Origin: Thiohalobacter sp. IOR34
GTDB taxonomy: Bacteria > Pseudomonadota > Gammaproteobacteria > Thiohalobacterales > Thiohalobacteraceae
NCBI RefSeq assembly: GCF_030406045.1
Contig: NZ_CP128988.1
Span: 2,081,438-2,145,437, forward strand
DNA: 64,000 nt
Direction: 5' to 3'
The position numbers were made by a program, and so were the translations under genes. Positions 32,176 through 64,000 of the stretch are shown one piece after another. Below the pieces are notes generated by a model. That model was given only the letters and a program-made list of their open reading frames with translations, was not told where the DNA came from and made no database searches. The stretch's first letter is position 1. The number at the start of each line of letters is the position of its first letter.

Positions 32176-32189
32176 TTGATTTAAATCAA
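32176..32189. promoter_or_regulatory. Perfect FNR/Anr-type box
   Basis: TTGATTTAAATCAA is a perfect palindrome matching TTGAT-N4-ATCAA. Its centre is about 151 bp before the predicted start of the sigma-54 transcript. No sigma-70 -10 was found at the usual class II spacing on either strand, so its target promoter is unclear. Confidence 0.6.
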
Positions 32190-56164: not shown

Positions 56165-56758
56165 TCACTCCGCCTCTGTGCCTGCCGGCGCCGGGCGCGT
56201 CACCAAGCGCATCGCCGGCGGGTCGAGGATACAGGCACTGCGACACTGGGCGCAGCCGATGCAACGGCCGGCATCGATCTGCGGCCGCGGACCCATCCAG
56301 CCCAGCGCTCCCGGCACCGGGCAGCTCCCCGAACAGGCGCCGCACTCGGGGCCGCTGTAGGGCAGGCAGCTTGCAGGGTCGATCTCCAGGCGTGCCAGCC
56401 TCGGCAGCGGCCGGGCCGCCTCCTCCTCCACCTCGGGCAGGCGCAGGGCTCCGGGCTCGCAGGCCGCGACACAGGGCCAGTCCTCGCACAGCGCACAGGC
56501 CTTGTGCAGCAGGTCCAGGGCCGGCGTCGCCACCACCTGGGCACCGAGCCGCGATGGCAAGGGGAAGATCAGCTGCTCCGGACAGGCCTCCACGCAGGCG
56601 TTGCAGCGGGTGCAGGCGAGAAGAAATTCCAGTTCATCCAGCGCATGGGGTGGCCGGATCCAGCGCGAGGCGCGCTGGCTCACCCGGGCGTCAACCTGCT
56701 TGACCACCTGCCTGCCGGTCTTGCGTAGCGCCTGCTGGAAAAAGGCCCGCCGGTCCAC
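56165..56758 (-). CDS. NapF-like multi-[4Fe-4S] ferredoxin
   Basis: 197 aa with four Cys clusters: CTRCNACVEACP, CALCEDWPCVAAC, CLPYSGPECGACSGSCP and CIGCAQCRSACILDPP. The N-terminus is VDRRAFFQQALRKTG, resembling the NapF start, and there is no signal peptide, so it is cytoplasmic. GTG start at 56758, 2 nt after the upstream gene. NapF proteins help mature or supply electrons to NapA before export. Last gene of the cluster. Confidence 0.82.
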   Translation of the reverse strand: MDRRAFFQQALRKTGRQVVKQVDARVSQRASRWIRPPHALDELEFLLACTRCNACVEACPEQLIFPLPSRLGAQVVATPALDLLHKACALCEDWPCVAACEPGALRLPEVEEEAARPLPRLARLEIDPASCLPYSGPECGACSGSCPVPGALGWMGPRPQIDAGRCIGCAQCRSACILDPPAMRLVTRPAPAGTEAE

Positions 56759-56760
56759 GC

Positions 56761-58293
56761 CTACATCCTCATGACCATCGGCTGCATCAGCAACCAGAGG
56801 TGCGCCGAGTTGACGAGCAGCGCAAACAACAGCATCGGCGCCAGGCGCCAGCCGCTGCGGTGCCCGCCCTCCTCCAGCAGGGCGCGCCCCCGGTAACGCA
56901 CGATCTGCACCGCCACCACGAAACCGAAGACCATCAACCCGGCCTGCAAGACAAACAACGCCTCCTGGGAAATCAGCATGTGCATGTGGCGCATATGCTT
57001 CTCCATCATGGTCAGCGGTGCGGTATCGATGCCCAGCGGGTTGGCGAACACGGCACCGAGTCCAGCTCCCTCGCGCATCAGGTGATTGAGGTTGTGCGCC
57101 ATGTGATAGGCAAAGGCCAGCGGCAGGGCGACGAAGGCAAAACTGGCGAAGGCCCGCCGGTATTCCAGCTGCGAGCCGGACAGCCGGCGGGCCGCAGCCA
57201 CCAGCGCGGCATAGAGTCCGCCGACCAGCAACAGGCAGACCGTCAGGCCGATGGAGAAACTCCACAACAGTTGGCCGGAGTCGCCGATCCGCGTTGCCAG
57301 CTGCTGCATCCATCCCTCCCAGAAGGGCATCATGGTGATGCCGTGGAAGGCGGTCAGGGCCAGCAGACCGAGCATGAACCAGGCCTCGTCCCAGCGCGGC
57401 CGTGCACCGTGGACGGCCTCCACACTGGGCGTGCGCAGCCGCCAGGCGACATTGGTCTGGGGACAGCTCTGGCTGCAGTTGCCACAGGAGGTGCAGTAAC
57501 TGTTCTGCTTGAGGCGCCCCATCACCAGCCAGGTCGGGCAGGGGTCGATGGTCTCGTTACCGTGATAGCACTCCAGGGTCTTGCAGTCGACACAGATGTC
57601 GGCATCGATCGGCCGCAGCTCGACGGCCGAGAGCTGGGAATAGAAACCCACGGTGCGGCCGACCGGACAGAAATAGCGGCAGAAGGCCTTGCGCTGGTAG
57701 ATGGCGAGCGAGATCGTGGCCAGCACCACCATCAGCAGCGCCACCAGGGCGGTGGCATAGGGGCTGGTGGTGATGCCCACGCCGAGTTCCAGCCAGGTGA
57801 GGCCGATGAACAGCAGCAGCGCCGGCCAGACGTTCTGCAGACGCCGCGGCACCCGCAGGTTGAGACTGGTGTCCGCCGCGGCGCGGCGCCACAGGCGGCG
57901 GCGCACCAGCCATTGCGCCAGGGCATCCCAGGGACAGACCGCGCACCAGGCCGAACCGAGGAAGAAGATGGAAAAGACCAGTCCGGCCCACCACAGGTTC
58001 CAGGTCAGCATGGTGGCGATGTTGCGTTCCGGGATCGGCGTACCGAACAGTCCGGCGATGATGACCAGCAGGAAAAAGCCGACCATCAGCAGCTTGAGCA
58101 GCAGCAGGGGCCAGGGACTGGTCACCATGCGACGCACCAGGGGGCCGAGCAGCGGCACCCTCGCCAGACTCAGGGACCGCGACACCGAGCGCTGCGGTGC
58201 CGGCACCCGCAGCGCCCAGAGACTGATCAGCAGCATCAGGCCGAGGATCAGCCCACCCCAGAGTTGCGGCAGCCCGGGGTGGGTCATGATCAC
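56761..58293 (-). CDS. Membrane polyferredoxin (NapH/NosR/CcoG-like) with His-rich C-terminal membrane half
   Basis: 510 aa. The N-terminal half resembles NapH/NosR/CcoG: membrane helices, the Cys motifs CAVCPWD and CRYFCPVG, then two [4Fe-4S] sites (CVDCKTLEC, CTSCGNCSQSCP). The C-terminal half is five or so helices with many histidines (AFHGITMM, YHMAHNLNHLM, EKHMRHMHML), which could ligate haem b or a metal. It overlaps the upstream gene by 4 nt and probably moves electrons between the quinone pool and the periplasm. No close named family is recognised for the full length. Confidence 0.78.
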   Translation of the reverse strand: MIMTHPGLPQLWGGLILGLMLLISLWALRVPAPQRSVSRSLSLARVPLLGPLVRRMVTSPWPLLLLKLLMVGFFLLVIIAGLFGTPIPERNIATMLTWNLWWAGLVFSIFFLGSAWCAVCPWDALAQWLVRRRLWRRAAADTSLNLRVPRRLQNVWPALLLFIGLTWLELGVGITTSPYATALVALLMVVLATISLAIYQRKAFCRYFCPVGRTVGFYSQLSAVELRPIDADICVDCKTLECYHGNETIDPCPTWLVMGRLKQNSYCTSCGNCSQSCPQTNVAWRLRTPSVEAVHGARPRWDEAWFMLGLLALTAFHGITMMPFWEGWMQQLATRIGDSGQLLWSFSIGLTVCLLLVGGLYAALVAAARRLSGSQLEYRRAFASFAFVALPLAFAYHMAHNLNHLMREGAGLGAVFANPLGIDTAPLTMMEKHMRHMHMLISQEALFVLQAGLMVFGFVVAVQIVRYRGRALLEEGGHRSGWRLAPMLLFALLVNSAHLWLLMQPMVMRM

Positions 58294-58889
58294 GGCCGGC
58301 CCTCCTCATGCGCCTGACGGATCTTGTTACGCAGCGCGCGCTTGCGCTGCACGAGATTGACCCCGACCAGCACGGCCACGATCACGCCGACCGCGATACC
58401 CAGGGGACCGACCGGCGCCGGATCGCCGATCCGCAGGGGGAAGTCGATCTGGTAGGGCTCGCCATCGGCCTCGAACCGGGCGGTGATGATGTAGTCGCCG
58501 GCCTCGCTGAAGACGAAGCCCTGACGGAACACATTGTCGTCCGGCGGCTGGACCCCCAGCAATTCCTCCTCCCCGGAGAACCAGCCGTCGTCGCGCACCT
58601 TGAAGGTCACCTCGCCCTGGAAGGGCTCGCCGCCGTCGATGCGCGAAGCGTAGAGATTGATGCGCCCGGGCTCACCCGGCCGGGGAAAGGCCGGGAACAC
58701 CATGTAGGTCACGAAATAGCTGCCGATCTGGGTCTCGACCTGCATGCTCGGCGGCGTGTTGGAGTCCTCGTTCAGGCTGTAGGCCGGGCGGCCCAGCACA
58801 TGATGGGCAAAAACGCCGGCCGTCGGCAGCCAGGCCAGCACCACCAGAAGCATGCACTGCCGTGCAAAAAACCGCAGACTACCGGTCAT
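58290..58889 (-). CDS. Exported, C-terminally membrane-anchored protein of unknown function
   Basis: 199 aa. Signal peptide (ending near GVFAHHV), a beta-rich periplasmic domain (about 30-160) resembling FixH/YtkA-type immunoglobulin-like folds (GEPFQGEVTFKVRDDG, VFSEAGDYIITARFEADGEPYQIDFPLRIG), then one membrane helix and a short basic tail. The mature protein begins AHHVLG, so its exposed N-terminal His pair could bind a metal such as copper. That role is an inference only. Coupled to the polyferredoxin gene by ATGA. Confidence 0.7.
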   Translation of the reverse strand: MTGSLRFFARQCMLLVVLAWLPTAGVFAHHVLGRPAYSLNEDSNTPPSMQVETQIGSYFVTYMVFPAFPRPGEPGRINLYASRIDGGEPFQGEVTFKVRDDGWFSGEEELLGVQPPDDNVFRQGFVFSEAGDYIITARFEADGEPYQIDFPLRIGDPAPVGPLGIAVGVIVAVLVGVNLVQRKRALRNKIRQAHEEGRP

Positions 58890-58927
58890 GACTTGCTTCT
58901 CTCCAATTCCCGTTCTGCACTTCTATT

Positions 58928-59536
58928 CTAAAGCGGATGCTGCACGACGGTACCGCGGGAGCGCTCGACGATCCAGATCGGTTTCGAGGGATGGGGACAG
59001 ACCTCGACACAGAGACCGCAACCCACACAGCCGTCTTTCACATAGGGCTGATATTGACCCCATTTCTTGAAGCCAATGGCCCGTTCCCCCAGCGGGCAGA
59101 TACCCACACAGGCGCCGCAGATACCCCGGTCGACCCAGGGATAGCAGGCTGATCGGTCGATCTGCGCGATGCCCATGTCGATCTCCTCGCGTGGCGTCTC
59201 GGTGAGCGCCGCCGTGGGACAGACCTCCATGCATTTGTTGCAGAGGATACAGGCCTTGCGGGCCGGATCGATATAGGGCGTGTTGAAGGCATCGCCCCCT
59301 TCCCGGCTGTGGAAAAGGATGCAGCGTGGCGGACAGACCTCGCCACAGAGACCACAGCCGATGCAGGCGGCATTGAAGCGGGCCGTGTCCTGCAGGGCCC
59401 CCGGCGGCCGCAGGTAGTTGCGCTCGGGCACCCCCTGCGCCGGTGCCTGCAGACGGGCCACGGCGTAGGGCAGGGACCCTGCGGCAGCCAGGGCTGCGCT
59501 GCCGATCAGCTGCTGCAGGAACCCCCGGCGGCGCAT
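58928..59536 (-). CDS. napG: NapG-like Tat-exported ferredoxin (copy 1)
   Basis: 202 aa with a Tat signal (RRRGFLQQLIGS) and four [4Fe-4S] sites: CIGCGLCGEVCP, CILCNKCMEVCP, CGACVGICP with an earlier Cys, and CVGCGLCVEVCP. NapG works with NapH to pass electrons from quinol to the periplasmic reductase. The start overlaps the napH-like stop by one base (TGATG). Gap of 38 bp to the hypothetical gene. Confidence 0.88.
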   Translation of the reverse strand: MRRRGFLQQLIGSAALAAAGSLPYAVARLQAPAQGVPERNYLRPPGALQDTARFNAACIGCGLCGEVCPPRCILFHSREGGDAFNTPYIDPARKACILCNKCMEVCPTAALTETPREEIDMGIAQIDRSACYPWVDRGICGACVGICPLGERAIGFKKWGQYQPYVKDGCVGCGLCVEVCPHPSKPIWIVERSRGTVVQHPL

Positions 59537-60537
59537 CAGTCCGGCACCTCACCATCCTTGTCCGCGGCCTGGCGGCGGCGGTAGTTGCGGCCTAGATGGC
59601 CGTCACCCTGCTCCGGGTAATCCCTGAACCTCAGGGTGAAGGTCATGGCATCGGTCGGGCAGATGGCGATGCAAGCCGTGCAGTTGTTGCACTCCTGGCC
59701 GAAGTGGTCACGCAAGGGGTCGAGACCGAATTCACAGACCGCATTGCACTTCGCGCAATCGTTGCACTTCTCGACGATGCGCCGGATTCTCAACAGGCGG
59801 TAACGGCCGAGCAGCGAGTAGAGCGCGCCGCCGGGACAGAGATAGCGGCAGAAGCCTCGCCGCGCCACCAGCAGGTCGAACAGCAGGGTGCCGACGAAGA
59901 ACAGGGTGCCACTGCCGAAACCACCGAGGGCGATGGCGTAGTAGAGTTCCCGACCGATGATCGCCGGCGGATAGATGGCCGCCACCAGCACGGCACCGCT
60001 CAGCGCCGACAGCAGCAGGCCGATCGCCAGCACCAGATACTTGATCCGCCTGTCGAAACGGCGCTTGCCGGTTCTGATGCCGGCGCGCTGCAGCCAGGTC
60101 GCGAGGGTGGTGTTGAGTTCGTAGAGCAGGGTCGCGGGGCAGATCCAGCCACAGAAAAAGCGCCCCAGCACCAGCGTGAACAGTACCGGAATCAGCGCCG
60201 TGAGCAGGAAGGGCGTATAGACACCAAGGCCGGCCGCGAACTGGCCGAGTACCGCCAGGGGATCACTGAGCTGCAGCCCCCACAGGGTGCCCGACCAGGT
60301 ATTGCCCTTGATGGCGTCCAGCTGCTCGACCGGATCGCTGAGGAAAGGTGAGGTCAGCGCCTCCATGATGTCGTACAGCCGCTTCTCGGAGGGCGCCAGC
60401 AAATCGTAGGCATGGGCCGCCAGATAGGACTGGTAGACATGCAGGAACGGCAACAGGATGAGCATGGAGAACACCACGACAAGACTGAACCAGCGCAGCT
60501 TGTTGAGGTGTCGCCAGAGGAAGAACGGTTTGTGCAT
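59536..60537 (-). CDS. napH: NapH-like quinol dehydrogenase membrane subunit
   Basis: 333 aa: membrane helices with the NapH cysteine motifs FCGWICP and FCRYLCPGG, followed by two C-terminal [4Fe-4S] sites (CNDCAKCNAVCEFG and CNNCTACIAICPTDAM). Longer periplasmic N-terminal region than E. coli NapH (about residues 35-100, YQSYLAAHAYDLLAPSEKRL). Its start lacks a good ribosome site and lies 11 nt after a 21-codon frame, so it may be translationally coupled. Confidence 0.88.
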   Translation of the reverse strand: MHKPFFLWRHLNKLRWFSLVVVFSMLILLPFLHVYQSYLAAHAYDLLAPSEKRLYDIMEALTSPFLSDPVEQLDAIKGNTWSGTLWGLQLSDPLAVLGQFAAGLGVYTPFLLTALIPVLFTLVLGRFFCGWICPATLLYELNTTLATWLQRAGIRTGKRRFDRRIKYLVLAIGLLLSALSGAVLVAAIYPPAIIGRELYYAIALGGFGSGTLFFVGTLLFDLLVARRGFCRYLCPGGALYSLLGRYRLLRIRRIVEKCNDCAKCNAVCEFGLDPLRDHFGQECNNCTACIAICPTDAMTFTLRFRDYPEQGDGHLGRNYRRRQAADKDGEVPD

Positions 60538-60548
60538 GTGCTATTCGA

Positions 60549-60614
60549 TCACCTGCCCGATTTCGCAGACAGAGCGGCGAACACAGCCGCCGCCTGCCCC
60601 TGGAAAAGATTCAT
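60549..60614 (-). CDS. 21-residue overlapping mini-ORF between napG-like and napH-like genes
   Basis: Its start overlaps the napG2 stop as ATGA and encodes MNLFQGQAAAVFAALSAKSG-Arg. It ends 11 nt before the napH start. It may only serve to couple translation across the 73-nt gap, since napH has no clear ribosome site. A functional peptide is possible but unsupported. Confidence 0.35.
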   Translation of the reverse strand: MNLFQGQAAAVFAALSAKSGR

Positions 60615-61189
60615 GTGTCGCCCCGCTCGGGAATGATCCTGATGGCCTGCGGCATCTGGATGCATGACCGCTCGCACAGTCCACAGCCGACGCACTTGTC
60701 GGTGATATGCGGCTGCTCCAGCATACCGACCCGGATCGCCACGTCCTGCAGCGGGCAGGCGCGGTAACAGACGCCACAGGTCTTGCCCTGATAGGACAGA
60801 CACAGGCTCTTGTTGACCACTGCCCGGCCCATGTGGACGCCATCGAGAATGGCATTCAGCTCCCGCTTCACGGGCTGGATGGCACCACTGGGACAGACGT
60901 CGCCACACTTCATGCACAGGATGCAGCCCTTCTCGCGGGGAATGATATAGGGGGTATCGAGTGAGGCCAGGCCGTTCTCGAGACCAAAGTAGTTGATGCA
61001 ACGATTGGGGCAGATTTCGCCACATTGCCCGCAGCGGATACAGCGGTCGGTGAATTCCGCCTCGGACAGGGCGCCCGGAGGCCTGAGATAGCGCAGCCCG
61101 CCGCCTGGAGCGAGTGCTGCTGCCGGATCCGGCACCATCGCCACCGTGGCCACGGCACCGAGGGCCTCGAAAAAACGTCTGCGTTTCAT
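60611..61189 (-). CDS. NapG-like Tat-exported ferredoxin (copy 2)
   Basis: 192 aa with a Tat signal (MKRRRFFEALGAVATVA) and four [4Fe-4S] sites: CIRCGQCGEICP, CILCMKCGDVCP, a CLSYQGKTCGVCYRACP cluster and CVGCGLCERSC. Clearly a paralogue of the 58928-59536 product, sharing LRYLRPPGAL-type text after the signal. Two different NapG-like proteins flank one NapH-like protein. Confidence 0.87.
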   Translation of the reverse strand: MKRRRFFEALGAVATVAMVPDPAAALAPGGGLRYLRPPGALSEAEFTDRCIRCGQCGEICPNRCINYFGLENGLASLDTPYIIPREKGCILCMKCGDVCPSGAIQPVKRELNAILDGVHMGRAVVNKSLCLSYQGKTCGVCYRACPLQDVAIRVGMLEQPHITDKCVGCGLCERSCIQMPQAIRIIPERGDT

Positions 61190-61211
61190 GCAATCGTGGT
61201 GGAGAAAAGAC

Positions 61212-61259
61212 CGTGCTCACGGCCCAGTGTATCACCGGATACACCCGACCGTGAGCACG
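61212..61259 (-). promoter_or_regulatory. Long stem-loop between napA-like and napG-like genes
   Basis: A perfect 11-bp stem (CGTGCTCACGG / CCGTGAGCACG) encloses a second 7-bp stem (GTGTATC / GATACAC). It lies in the 88-bp gap 19 bp after the napA stop, with no T-tract. It probably protects the napA message or reduces downstream expression. Confidence 0.7.
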
Positions 61260-61277
61260 CCATCTTCAGACGCCGGT

Positions 61278-63965
61278 TCAGATCTTCTCGATCCGTGCGG
61301 CAAGCTTCTTGAAGTCCACCTGTCCGGAGACCGGATCCCAGGCGCGGTTGGTGATGCCGTTGGCCAGCCACTTGTTCTTCTTGGGGTCGGCGCTGTCCGC
61401 CACCGACAGGTTCCAGGGTCCGAACATGTAACCGCGCGGCACATTGTTGCGGGCCGGCTTGACCAGGCTGTTGGTACCGACCTGGGCCCGCGCCTCCAGC
61501 GAACCACGCCGGGTCACCACCCGCACCTTGTCACCGTCCTTGATGCCGAGATCCTTGGCATCTTCAGGATGCATCTCGACATACATCTCCGGCACCAGGC
61601 GGCGGGTAGTCGGGCTGCGGTTGGACTTGGCGGTATGGAAGTGCTCGTAGACCACACCCAGTCCCATCCAGTAGGGGAACTTGTCCTTGGGCACGTCCTT
61701 CCAGTGGCGACCGCGGTACTTCTCGTCCGGCAGATCCGGGGTCAGCGCCTTGTCGCGGGCCAGCTTGATCAGGTCCATGTGATCGATGGTGTAGTGGTCC
61801 TTCTTGACACCGAACTCCATCAGCTTGCGAGTCCACTTCTCGCGATCGGTGTAGTCCTGGTGACAGAGCTTGATATGCAGCTTCCCGTCCTTGGTGCGGA
61901 AGGCACCATAGGGCTTGTCCTTCCAGCCTTCCTGCGACATATAGCGGCGCTTGGTACCACCCTGCTTGGCGATCTCGTAGGTCGGCGCCGGCCACTGGAT
62001 GCCGCGCAACTGCTTGAGCTGCTCGTAGGGCGACAGACCGTCGCGCTTCTCGCGCTCGAGGATACCGGTGAGGTCGGCGTCGGAACCGGCCGAGGCACGG
62101 ATCAGGTCGCGTAACACCTCCTCGGCGTCGTAGAAACCGTCCGCCTTGCGCTTGTAGGGGAGGATCTTCTCCATGTCCAGGCCCAGCAGGGTGCCGATCT
62201 CCTTGGCCTTGTCGATCACCATGTCCATGTCGGGACGGCAGCCCGGAGGCGGCTCGGCGGCCTTCTCGCAGATGTTGATGCGCCGCTCGGAGCTGATGTA
62301 CACGCCCTGTACCTCGCCCCAGGTGGCCGCCGGGAAGATCACGTCGGCATACAGGTTGTTGGGGGCGTGGCGATAGATCTCCTGCACCACATTGAAGGTC
62401 TTGCTCAATGCCGGGCGCACCAGATTGTACTGATCGGGCAGATCGATATGCGTCGCGTAGACCAGGAACATGGCCTTCACGTCACCCTTCAGGGCGCGCT
62501 CCATCATGCCCACGGCCATGCCCGGATTCTGCGAGTTCATGGCATTGATCAGGTTCTGCTCCGGCACCCGCCAGGCCTTGGCGATGCGCGCCCGGTGGGT
62601 GCTGTTCTTCAACGGCTCGTTGAACGGCAGGCGCCCGGTCAGGCCACCGGTGAAGCGCTCGCCCATGGCATTCGGCTGGCCGGTCATGGAGAAGGGACCG
62701 CAGCCGGGCTTGGCCACGTTGCCGGTCAGGGCCAGCAGGTTGACGATGGAGATGACGTTGTGCTGGCCATGCAGGTGCTGATTGTAGCCGATGCCCCACA
62801 TGATGATGACACCGCCCTGCTCCTTGCCCTGCTTGCCGCGGGCGAGGCGCTTGCGGGTGGCGTCGGCGAACATGCCGGCGACACGGCGGATCAGTGCCGG
62901 GGAGACGTCGTGGTTCGGCCCGCCCATGCGGTCCTGGACCTGCTCCGGGCTGTAGTCCTTGAGCACGCCGTCGACGTATTCCTTCCAGCCGGCGACATGC
63001 TGCTTGAGGAAGTCCCAGGCGATGACGTCGTCGTGTTCCTTGAGCAGCACATGGGCGATGGCGTTGAGGAAGCTGATGTCGCCGTTGAGGATCGGCACAT
63101 GCACGGTGTTGTCCGGATTGATGTCCTCGTAGCCCATCACCGTGCCGGTCCGCCGTGGATCGACGACCACGGTGGGAATATTGCTGCGCTTCTTGTAGTC
63201 GGCGATGCGCCAGAACACGATCGGGTGCGACTCACGGGCGTTGTGGCCGAAGTGCATGACCATGTCGGCCAGCTCCAGATCCTCGTAGGCCAGCGGCGGG
63301 GTGTCGGAACCGAGGGTGGCGAAATAGCCGGTCACCGCCGAGGTCATGCACATGCGGGCATTGGCCTCGATGGTATTGGAGCCAAGGATGCCCTTGAGGA
63401 ACAGGTTCTCCAGGTACTGCCCCTCCACCGTCAGCTGGCCGGAACCATAGAGGGCAATGGAATTGCCGCCGTATTTCTTGGCGAAGTGGGCAATCTTGTG
63501 CGCCACCATGACGGAGGCCTTTTCGTAGGGCACGCGCACGAAATGCTCGTCGTCGAAGGAACCCTTGGTCTGGCTGGTGTACTCGATGTCACCGTGGCCG
63601 GGCTTGTTCCACTCGGCCCAGACGTCCTTGCGCACATAGGCATCGCCTTCCATGCGGTCGACGTACATGGGTTCGGCGGCGGTCAGGCCCTTGATGCACT
63701 GCAAGCCCTTGTTGGTGGGGTGGTCCTTGTCCGGGCGCATGGAGACGATCTTGCCGTTCTCTACCTGGATGACGGTACCGCAGCCAACGCCGCAATAGGG
63801 ACACTGGGCCAGGGCGGTGCTGCGCTTGGGCGTTTCCGCCTGGCTGGCCGGCGCTGCCTCCAGTTCCGGATTGTCGGCCACGAACAGGCCGGCACCCGCG
63901 GCGGTACCCGTGATGAATGCACTCCCCTTGAGAAACTTGCGGCGAGTTGTCTTGATGCGTTTCAT
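61278..63965 (-). CDS. napA: NapA-like periplasmic molybdopterin oxidoreductase
   Basis: 895 aa with a Tat signal (TTRRKFLKGSAF), an N-terminal [4Fe-4S] site (Cys55, 58, 62 and 90 in CPYCGVGCG ... LQC), the molybdenum-ligand Cys in NARMCMTSAV near 204, GYNQHLHG, and the C-terminal molydopterin domain (EHFHT, RRLVPEMYVEMHPEDAKDLG). The overall pattern is that of NapA nitrate reductases. It is some 65 residues longer than typical NapA and diverged in several loops, so nitrate is the likely but unproven substrate. First visible gene of the cluster; its promoter and any napD lie beyond the window edge. Confidence 0.86.
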   Translation of the reverse strand: MKRIKTTRRKFLKGSAFITGTAAGAGLFVADNPELEAAPASQAETPKRSTALAQCPYCGVGCGTVIQVENGKIVSMRPDKDHPTNKGLQCIKGLTAAEPMYVDRMEGDAYVRKDVWAEWNKPGHGDIEYTSQTKGSFDDEHFVRVPYEKASVMVAHKIAHFAKKYGGNSIALYGSGQLTVEGQYLENLFLKGILGSNTIEANARMCMTSAVTGYFATLGSDTPPLAYEDLELADMVMHFGHNARESHPIVFWRIADYKKRSNIPTVVVDPRRTGTVMGYEDINPDNTVHVPILNGDISFLNAIAHVLLKEHDDVIAWDFLKQHVAGWKEYVDGVLKDYSPEQVQDRMGGPNHDVSPALIRRVAGMFADATRKRLARGKQGKEQGGVIIMWGIGYNQHLHGQHNVISIVNLLALTGNVAKPGCGPFSMTGQPNAMGERFTGGLTGRLPFNEPLKNSTHRARIAKAWRVPEQNLINAMNSQNPGMAVGMMERALKGDVKAMFLVYATHIDLPDQYNLVRPALSKTFNVVQEIYRHAPNNLYADVIFPAATWGEVQGVYISSERRINICEKAAEPPPGCRPDMDMVIDKAKEIGTLLGLDMEKILPYKRKADGFYDAEEVLRDLIRASAGSDADLTGILEREKRDGLSPYEQLKQLRGIQWPAPTYEIAKQGGTKRRYMSQEGWKDKPYGAFRTKDGKLHIKLCHQDYTDREKWTRKLMEFGVKKDHYTIDHMDLIKLARDKALTPDLPDEKYRGRHWKDVPKDKFPYWMGLGVVYEHFHTAKSNRSPTTRRLVPEMYVEMHPEDAKDLGIKDGDKVRVVTRRGSLEARAQVGTNSLVKPARNNVPRGYMFGPWNLSVADSADPKKNKWLANGITNRAWDPVSGQVDFKKLAARIEKI

Positions 63966-64000
63966 GCTCTACTTCCCCCTATTTGTTCAGCGTCCGCAGA

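Follow-up and report, generated by a model that had tools for sequence, protein, structure and literature searches.

The closest described system is the periplasmic nitrate reductase (Nap), whose catalytic subunit NapA is exported by the twin-arginine translocation (Tat) pathway and carries a molybdenum-bis(pyranopterin guanine dinucleotide) cofactor (Mo-bisPGD) and a 4Fe-4S cluster, with a Cys-Met molybdenum site and a catalytic Arg and Lys. In nap operons of the napFDAGHBC type NapG and NapH, often NapC, and a NapF-like gene stand alongside. The same features recur in a gene cluster at the end of a 64,000-nucleotide window (the whole stretch of DNA analysed, G000:C1:2081438-2145437) from the complete 2.96 Mb genome of Thiohalobacter sp. 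IOR34; its catalytic subunit is here called MoA. The cluster differs from nap operons in having a class I diheme cytochrome instead of NapB, in having no NapD and in three extra genes, encoding a second NapG (NapG2), a YtkA-like protein and a protein of 510 amino acids (aa). MoA in turn differs from NapA in its separate lineage and in replaced equivalents of Glu156, Asp355, Met308, Arg720 and Trp725. Judged by its sequence, MoA is a discrete third lineage beside NapA and the assimilatory Nas enzymes, apart from the formate dehydrogenases. With somewhat more confidence than doubt, we read the cluster as an anaerobically induced, quinol-fed periplasmic oxyanion reductase, most likely converting nitrate to nitrite.

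Gene content and conservation of the cluster

Seven co-oriented minus-strand genes occupy positions 56165-63965 and are tightly packed, with gaps of 88, 73, -1, 38, -4 and 2 bases. This arrangement had been recognized earlier from the letters of the window (hereafter the sequence-only reading), and chance is excluded as its explanation because the synteny is kept in some 80 relatives. The same reading had seen no cytochrome c gene and proposed a cytochrome-poor electron path. The first point was an effect of the window edge: where it had suggested looking past position 64000 for napD, napB or napC, the gene directly upstream, 13 bases from that of MoA, encodes a diheme cytochrome c other than NapB, and a GGDEF/EAL-type protein is encoded beyond it. 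Features are listed below with their presence among relatives with enough sequence, as determined by tblastn; denominators vary by gene (75, 53 and 41).

63979..64000, minus strand: 3' end of the diheme cytochrome c gene, 219 aa, present in 74/75 relatives (whole gene: window-equivalent positions 63979-64638, that is L009:9417-10076, minus strand)
61278..63965, minus strand: MoA, the Tat-exported Mo-bisPGD / 4Fe-4S catalytic subunit, 895 aa
60611..61189, minus strand: NapG1, NapG-like Tat-type periplasmic ferredoxin, 192 aa, by the NapG model; 51/53 relatives
59536..60537, minus strand: NapH-like membrane quinol dehydrogenase, 333 aa, by the NapH model; 51/53 relatives
58928..59536, minus strand: NapG2, second NapG-like Tat-type ferredoxin, 202 aa, optional; 34/53 relatives
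58290..58889, minus strand: YtkA-like protein, 199 aa; 51/53 relatives
56761..58293, minus strand: 510-aa membrane protein, optional; 36/53 relatives
56165..56758, minus strand: NapF/NapG-like 4Fe-4S protein, 197 aa, GTG start; 50/53 relatives

The conserved order is NapC, diheme cytochrome c, MoA, NapG1, NapH, (NapG2), YtkA-like, (510 aa), NapF-like. The diheme cytochrome is the most constant partner of MoA and tetraheme NapC was found in 38/41 relatives, so the path is not cytochrome-poor. The two NapG-like ferredoxins around NapH are indeed distinct: they share 42% identity, and each has a twin-arginine start. Genes for the 199-aa and 510-aa proteins are likewise present and belong to the system. 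Homologous clusters therefore do have an upstream cytochrome c, though not NapB, and they keep the extra genes.

The cytochrome, a class I protein with two CxxCH motifs, most resembles CcoP-type domains and other diheme proteins of its class; it showed no meaningful similarity to NapB. When NapB and NapD of the Thiohalobacter genome were used as tblastn queries against 84 loci, the sole locus with matches was L096, which has a true nap operon next to the cluster. The Thiohalobacter genome itself holds a true napFDAGHBC operon at G000:C1:2790000-2795000 (L010), with a moaA-like radical SAM gene nearby, as well as NasA at 0.74 Mb. Among the stretches read, its NapC is encoded only at this canonical operon and may be shared with the MoA system. 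Other cytochromes were seen at a few loci. Genome G011 has a further diheme cytochrome, unlike the first (361 aa, L044:7497-8582), inserted between NapG1 and NapH, and the related metagenome-assembled genomes (MAGs) with loci L114 and L118 encode, upstream and on the opposite strand, cytochromes with 15 and 21 CxxCH motifs, and also have a gene for a membrane protein of about 310 aa beside the cluster.

Lineage and regulation of MoA

Against the NapA models TIGR01706 and NF010055, MoA scored 309 and 329 bits (cut-offs 930.55 and 904). The best NCBIfam profile by score was that of the formate dehydrogenase alpha subunit (Fdh-alpha, TIGR01591; 335 bits, cut-off 666), and scores against Nas models were lower than against either. 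Identity to true NapA is about 28-33%. The partner proteins gave a similar picture, with NapG1 reaching 127 bits against the NapG model (cut-off 269) and the NapH-like protein 162 bits against the NapH model (cut-off 234); genes of NapG, NapH and NapF type are present and score below the equivalog cut-offs. The name 'NapA-like' given by the sequence-only reading holds at the level of the superfamily and fails at that of the NapA family, and 'Nap-type' in the strict sense had to be given up, since the catalytic subunit is no member of the NapA family and genes for NapB and NapD are missing nearby. What is supported is export of the molybdoenzyme to the periplasm and its association with quinol dehydrogenase parts of NapGH type; the twin-arginine (Tat-type) start of MoA reads RRKFLK.

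In the maximum-likelihood tree all MoA sequences grouped in a single clade (100/100), whose stem measured 2.56 substitutions per site. NapA, Nas and MoA stood together on one side of a 100/100 branch with the formate dehydrogenases opposite; MoA and NapA were separate clades, each with 100/100, and MoA fell outside Nas (separate clades, 100/100 and 99/94). Membership in Nas was rejected on these clades and on the Tat-type start. Membership in the formate dehydrogenase alpha family was rejected on the profile score and because Cys-Met, not Cys/Sec-His, stands at the molybdenum in 82/82 members. The iron-oxidation 'MobB' of Zetaproteobacteria was dropped as a lead, as the source on it makes no mention of NapA and no link to the MoA clade was found.

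A scan of 84,980 species genomes gave at least 80 loci, the number kept, with full-length MoA identity of 77-86%, all in Pseudomonadota. They span alpha- and gammaproteobacteria, mostly from marine sources judging by record titles, and carriers include Photobacterium, Shewanella, Colwellia, Ruegeria, Thioploca and Ca. Parabeggiatoa; named isolates are Photobacterium profundum, P. indicum, Shewanella benthica, S. abyssi, S. gelidimarina and a Ruegeria sp. Among 397 genomes of the phylum, nearly all at least 90% complete, six had MoA members (the Thiohalobacter genome and five at 73-76%), and all other matches stayed at or below 40%. Alpha- and gammaproteobacterial members were intermixed in the tree, which points to horizontal transfer. 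On plasmids, tblastn found only relatives with less than 60% identity (about 28-30% for the best listed), and the MoA clade was not seen there. The open literature searched, in which most subscription papers are lacking, yielded no description of the clade; this does not prove novelty.

In the Thiohalobacter genome the cytochrome gene is preceded, at a distance of 176 nt, by a perfect FNR-type box (TTGAT-N4-ATCAA). Within 320 nt upstream of the first gene of the cluster, such boxes were perfect in 18/71 loci and had at most one mismatch in 39/71. Shuffled sequence gave 0.00 and 1.55, respectively, and other genes in the same loci 1/304 and 20/304 (Fisher, p = 2e-13 for perfect boxes and 4e-19 with at most one mismatch). 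Neighbouring genes encode FNR-type regulators at 7 loci and moaA at 8 loci, with modC-like and moeA-type genes in some. Together, boxes and neighbours support an anaerobic, molybdenum-dependent function. Flanking-gene families are otherwise diverse and carry little substrate information, the recurrent hints being cofactor, regulator and NirS genes only. The only perfect FNR-type box inside the window (32176-32189) lies in a housekeeping region (ffh, rimM/trmD-like) and possibly arose by chance.

Active site and substrate

Residues were mapped by profile alignment to solved NapA structures and counted in 82 MoA members. The 4Fe-4S cysteines were kept in all 82 (one member with an unresolved residue). 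Equally invariant (82/82) were the molybdenum ligand Cys206, which aligns with NapA Cys140, the adjacent Met207, Lys92 between the 4Fe-4S cluster and the molybdenum cofactor, Arg437 over the active site, and Asp221. Arg437 and Asp221 correspond to Arg354 and Asp155 of D. desulfuricans NapA, and Arg354 has been named as a possible nitrate-binding residue (PMC13223375). The molybdenum centre of MoA looks like that of a nitrate reductase, while the surrounding pocket differs in a fixed manner, as detailed below.

We then considered which respiratory enzymes the carriers have besides MoA. In 51 carrier genomes, canonical NapA was found in 25, full-length NarG in 6 and neither in 21, with fragments counted as present. 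These 21 hold 41/42 copies of two universal marker (synthetase) genes, so the absence of NapA and NarG is probably real in most of them. NirS-family (cd1-type) genes occur in nine of the 21, seven at high score, and stand close beside the MoA cluster in two loci; the simplest reading is that MoA supplies the nitrite in such carriers, and it may be the sole respiratory nitrate reductase of some genomes. The Thiohalobacter genome has a cd1 / NirS-family gene set (G000:C1:2874840-2885975), so this host probably denitrifies, from nitrite onward at least. Nitrate is moderately favoured as the substrate because the Cys-Met site and the Arg are kept and because 21/51 carriers lack both NapA and NarG.

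From gene content, conservation, lineage, molybdenum ligand and active-site residues, FNR boxes and Tat-type signals we infer a direction of catalysis and an order of electron flow. Expression would be under oxygen control of the FNR/Anr/Dnr type. NapH, together with the NapG ferredoxins, would oxidise quinol at the membrane, as would NapC where present; Thiohalobacter could use the NapC encoded in its canonical nap operon. Electrons would pass to the dedicated diheme cytochrome c, then to the 4Fe-4S cluster of MoA and on to the periplasmic Mo-bisPGD site, where the oxyanion, most likely nitrate, would be reduced to nitrite.

Several observations weigh against nitrate. Three pocket residues of the D. 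desulfuricans enzyme are replaced in 82/82 members (Glu156 by Thr, Asp355 by Phe, Met308 by Ile), so that of the acidic residues of the substrate channel only Asp155 is kept. Equivalents of two pterin contacts of E. coli NapA, Arg720 and Trp725, described as conserved in NapA (PMC13223375), are altered, the first to Val in 81/82 members and the second to Phe in 82/82. Two canonical NapA genes are already present in five isolates of Photobacterium and Shewanella, where a third nitrate reductase would be redundant, and NirS-bearing genomes without Nap and Nar might start from nitrite. The 51 genomes are also mostly MAGs, with completeness estimated from two markers.

The reading that best survives beside nitrate keeps the FNR-regulated, quinol-fed periplasmic molybdenum reductase and changes only the acceptor, to another oxyanion such as selenate or to an unrecognised marine acceptor. 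We regard it as a tentative alternative. The fixed pocket replacements would fit it, as would the long stem branch, the dedicated cytochrome in the place of NapB, and the coexistence of one or two canonical NapA in 25/51 genomes, Thiohalobacter included. It has to contend with the retained Cys-Met site and key Arg of nitrate reductases and with the 21 carriers without NapA and NarG, nine of them bearing NirS-family genes. Two particular kinds of system are disfavoured. Chlorite dismutase (PF06778) was found in 0/51 carrier genomes, which disfavours dissimilatory chlorate reduction, and membership in the chlorate/perchlorate reductase systems (Clr with Cld) was rejected. IdrA-type iodate reductases have, according to the relevant passages of a MopB survey (PMC10100899), no amino-acid ligand to the molybdenum; MoA has a cysteine there in every member, and this type was rejected as well. 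Somewhat more doubtful still is the fuller claim that the cluster represents an unrecognised class of anaerobic respiratory molybdoenzyme, widespread in marine Pseudomonadota, with a non-nitrate acceptor, a cytochrome of its own and a membrane module that depends on metal.

It is improbable that MoA works oxidatively, as a formate dehydrogenase-like or nitrite-oxidising enzyme that passes electrons to the diheme cytochrome c. Fdh-alpha is the best profile, although far below its cut-off, and the cytochrome is CcoP-like; yet MoA has Cys-Met where Fdh has Cys/Sec-His, the tree sets Fdh apart with 100/100, the quinol dehydrogenases NapC and NapGH deliver electrons to reductases, and FNR boxes stand upstream. 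A canonical Nap with a rearranged operon, as the sequence-only reading had headed the cluster, is very improbable: the NapG-, NapH- and NapF-type genes and the roughly 30% identity to NapA are outweighed by the sub-cut-off scores, the separate clade, the lack of NapB and NapD in the cluster and the true napFDAGHBC operon elsewhere in the genome.

If MoA does reduce nitrate, surveys based on napA and narG overlook the initial step of denitrification in a share of the marine anoxic community, the gap being the 21 of the 51 carriers with neither gene. If it reduces another acceptor, a respiratory process widespread in the sea has so far gone unnoticed, and should the non-nitrate class be real, anoxic marine bacteria harbour an unknown one. 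As the conserved unit has a dedicated cytochrome and named isolates carry it, the substrate question is open to a direct knock-out test.

Accessory proteins and relation to known systems

At 382 aa the listed open reading frame of the NapF-like protein is too long: its orthologues measure about 200 aa, which moves the start to GTG 56758, directly behind the 510-aa gene, and leaves 197 aa. Because it has no hydrophobic export segment, the protein is probably cytoplasmic, and it probably aids maturation there. The 510-aa protein had been called a polyferredoxin, which does not describe it: its NapH-like first part holds one strict CxxCxxCxxxC motif and a second Cys group, and its second part is membrane-helical with conserved histidines and no Fe-S motifs. 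Similarly, the five Fe-S proteins hold about 11 strict cluster motifs, and the 16 once counted are reached only with variant motifs. The proposal of a possible second membrane entry point fared better, given NapH plus the NapH-like 510-aa protein, and NapC in most relatives. The structure model of the 510-aa protein (predicted local distance difference test, pLDDT, 84.9) found no convincing match among solved folds (Foldseek best E 0.019, template modelling score about 0.13), and with VIA the best Z of 7.3 was within noise for helical models. Distant homologues occur at L047, L048, L049 and L050, with one or two genes of about 500 aa each and without the strict Fe-S motif; several have an AHSFG/AHGFG-type start after the signal peptide, recalling the HH start of the YtkA-like protein.

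The YtkA-like protein consists of a signal sequence, a conserved HHxLGRPxY directly after it, an Ig-like domain and a C-terminal helix as its putative membrane anchor. The window protein had no Pfam match, and weak matches to CcmD and DUF4083 appeared in 3/52 members. Its model (mean pLDDT 89.7, the histidines of HHxLGRPxY in a low-confidence region) matched copper-binding CrdA (Z 12.5, root-mean-square deviation 2.3 over 104 residues) and P19-like proteins. The earlier label 'FixH/YtkA-like' therefore has no sequence-family match behind it, while the predicted Ig-like fold agrees with CrdA and P19. YtkA-like matches were found in 7/397 genomes of the phylum, five of them MoA carriers. In two genomes (G090 and G089; L188:9506-11838 and L189:9487-11582) the YtkA-like gene is followed by the 510-aa gene without MoA, which suggests that the pair is a separable module with an independent function; it would be a membrane accessory module, perhaps with a metal-handling role.

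Among known proteins, the copper-binding periplasmic CrdA, P19/FetP and PmoD have the Ig-like fold in common with that predicted for the YtkA-like protein, which differs from them in its C-terminal membrane helix, its HHxLGRPxY start and the lack of a sequence-family match. Like MoA, the Nas enzymes (NasA/NasC/NarB) belong to the Cys-Met branch of the superfamily, with up to 36-40% core identity in partial matches; they are cytoplasmic and assimilatory, whereas MoA carries a Tat signal and stands among respiratory genes. By best match, MoA-type sequences would be lumped into the NasC/NasA/NapA family of the MopB survey (PMC10100899), and the passages of that survey examined do not single out the clade or its gene cluster. 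Closer in gene arrangement are the Nap systems of Selenomonas (order napD-G-H-C-A), where NapGH and NapC adjoin a NapA-type enzyme, and of Sulfuricurvum, where a c-type cytochrome lies upstream of napAGH, as in the MoA cluster. Unlike MoA, both catalytic subunits fall inside the NapA clade (100/100), and the stretches examined have no annotated YtkA-like or 510-aa gene. Compared with these systems, the MoA cluster is a well-conserved variant that works like Nap and is by descent a third lineage with its own cytochrome.

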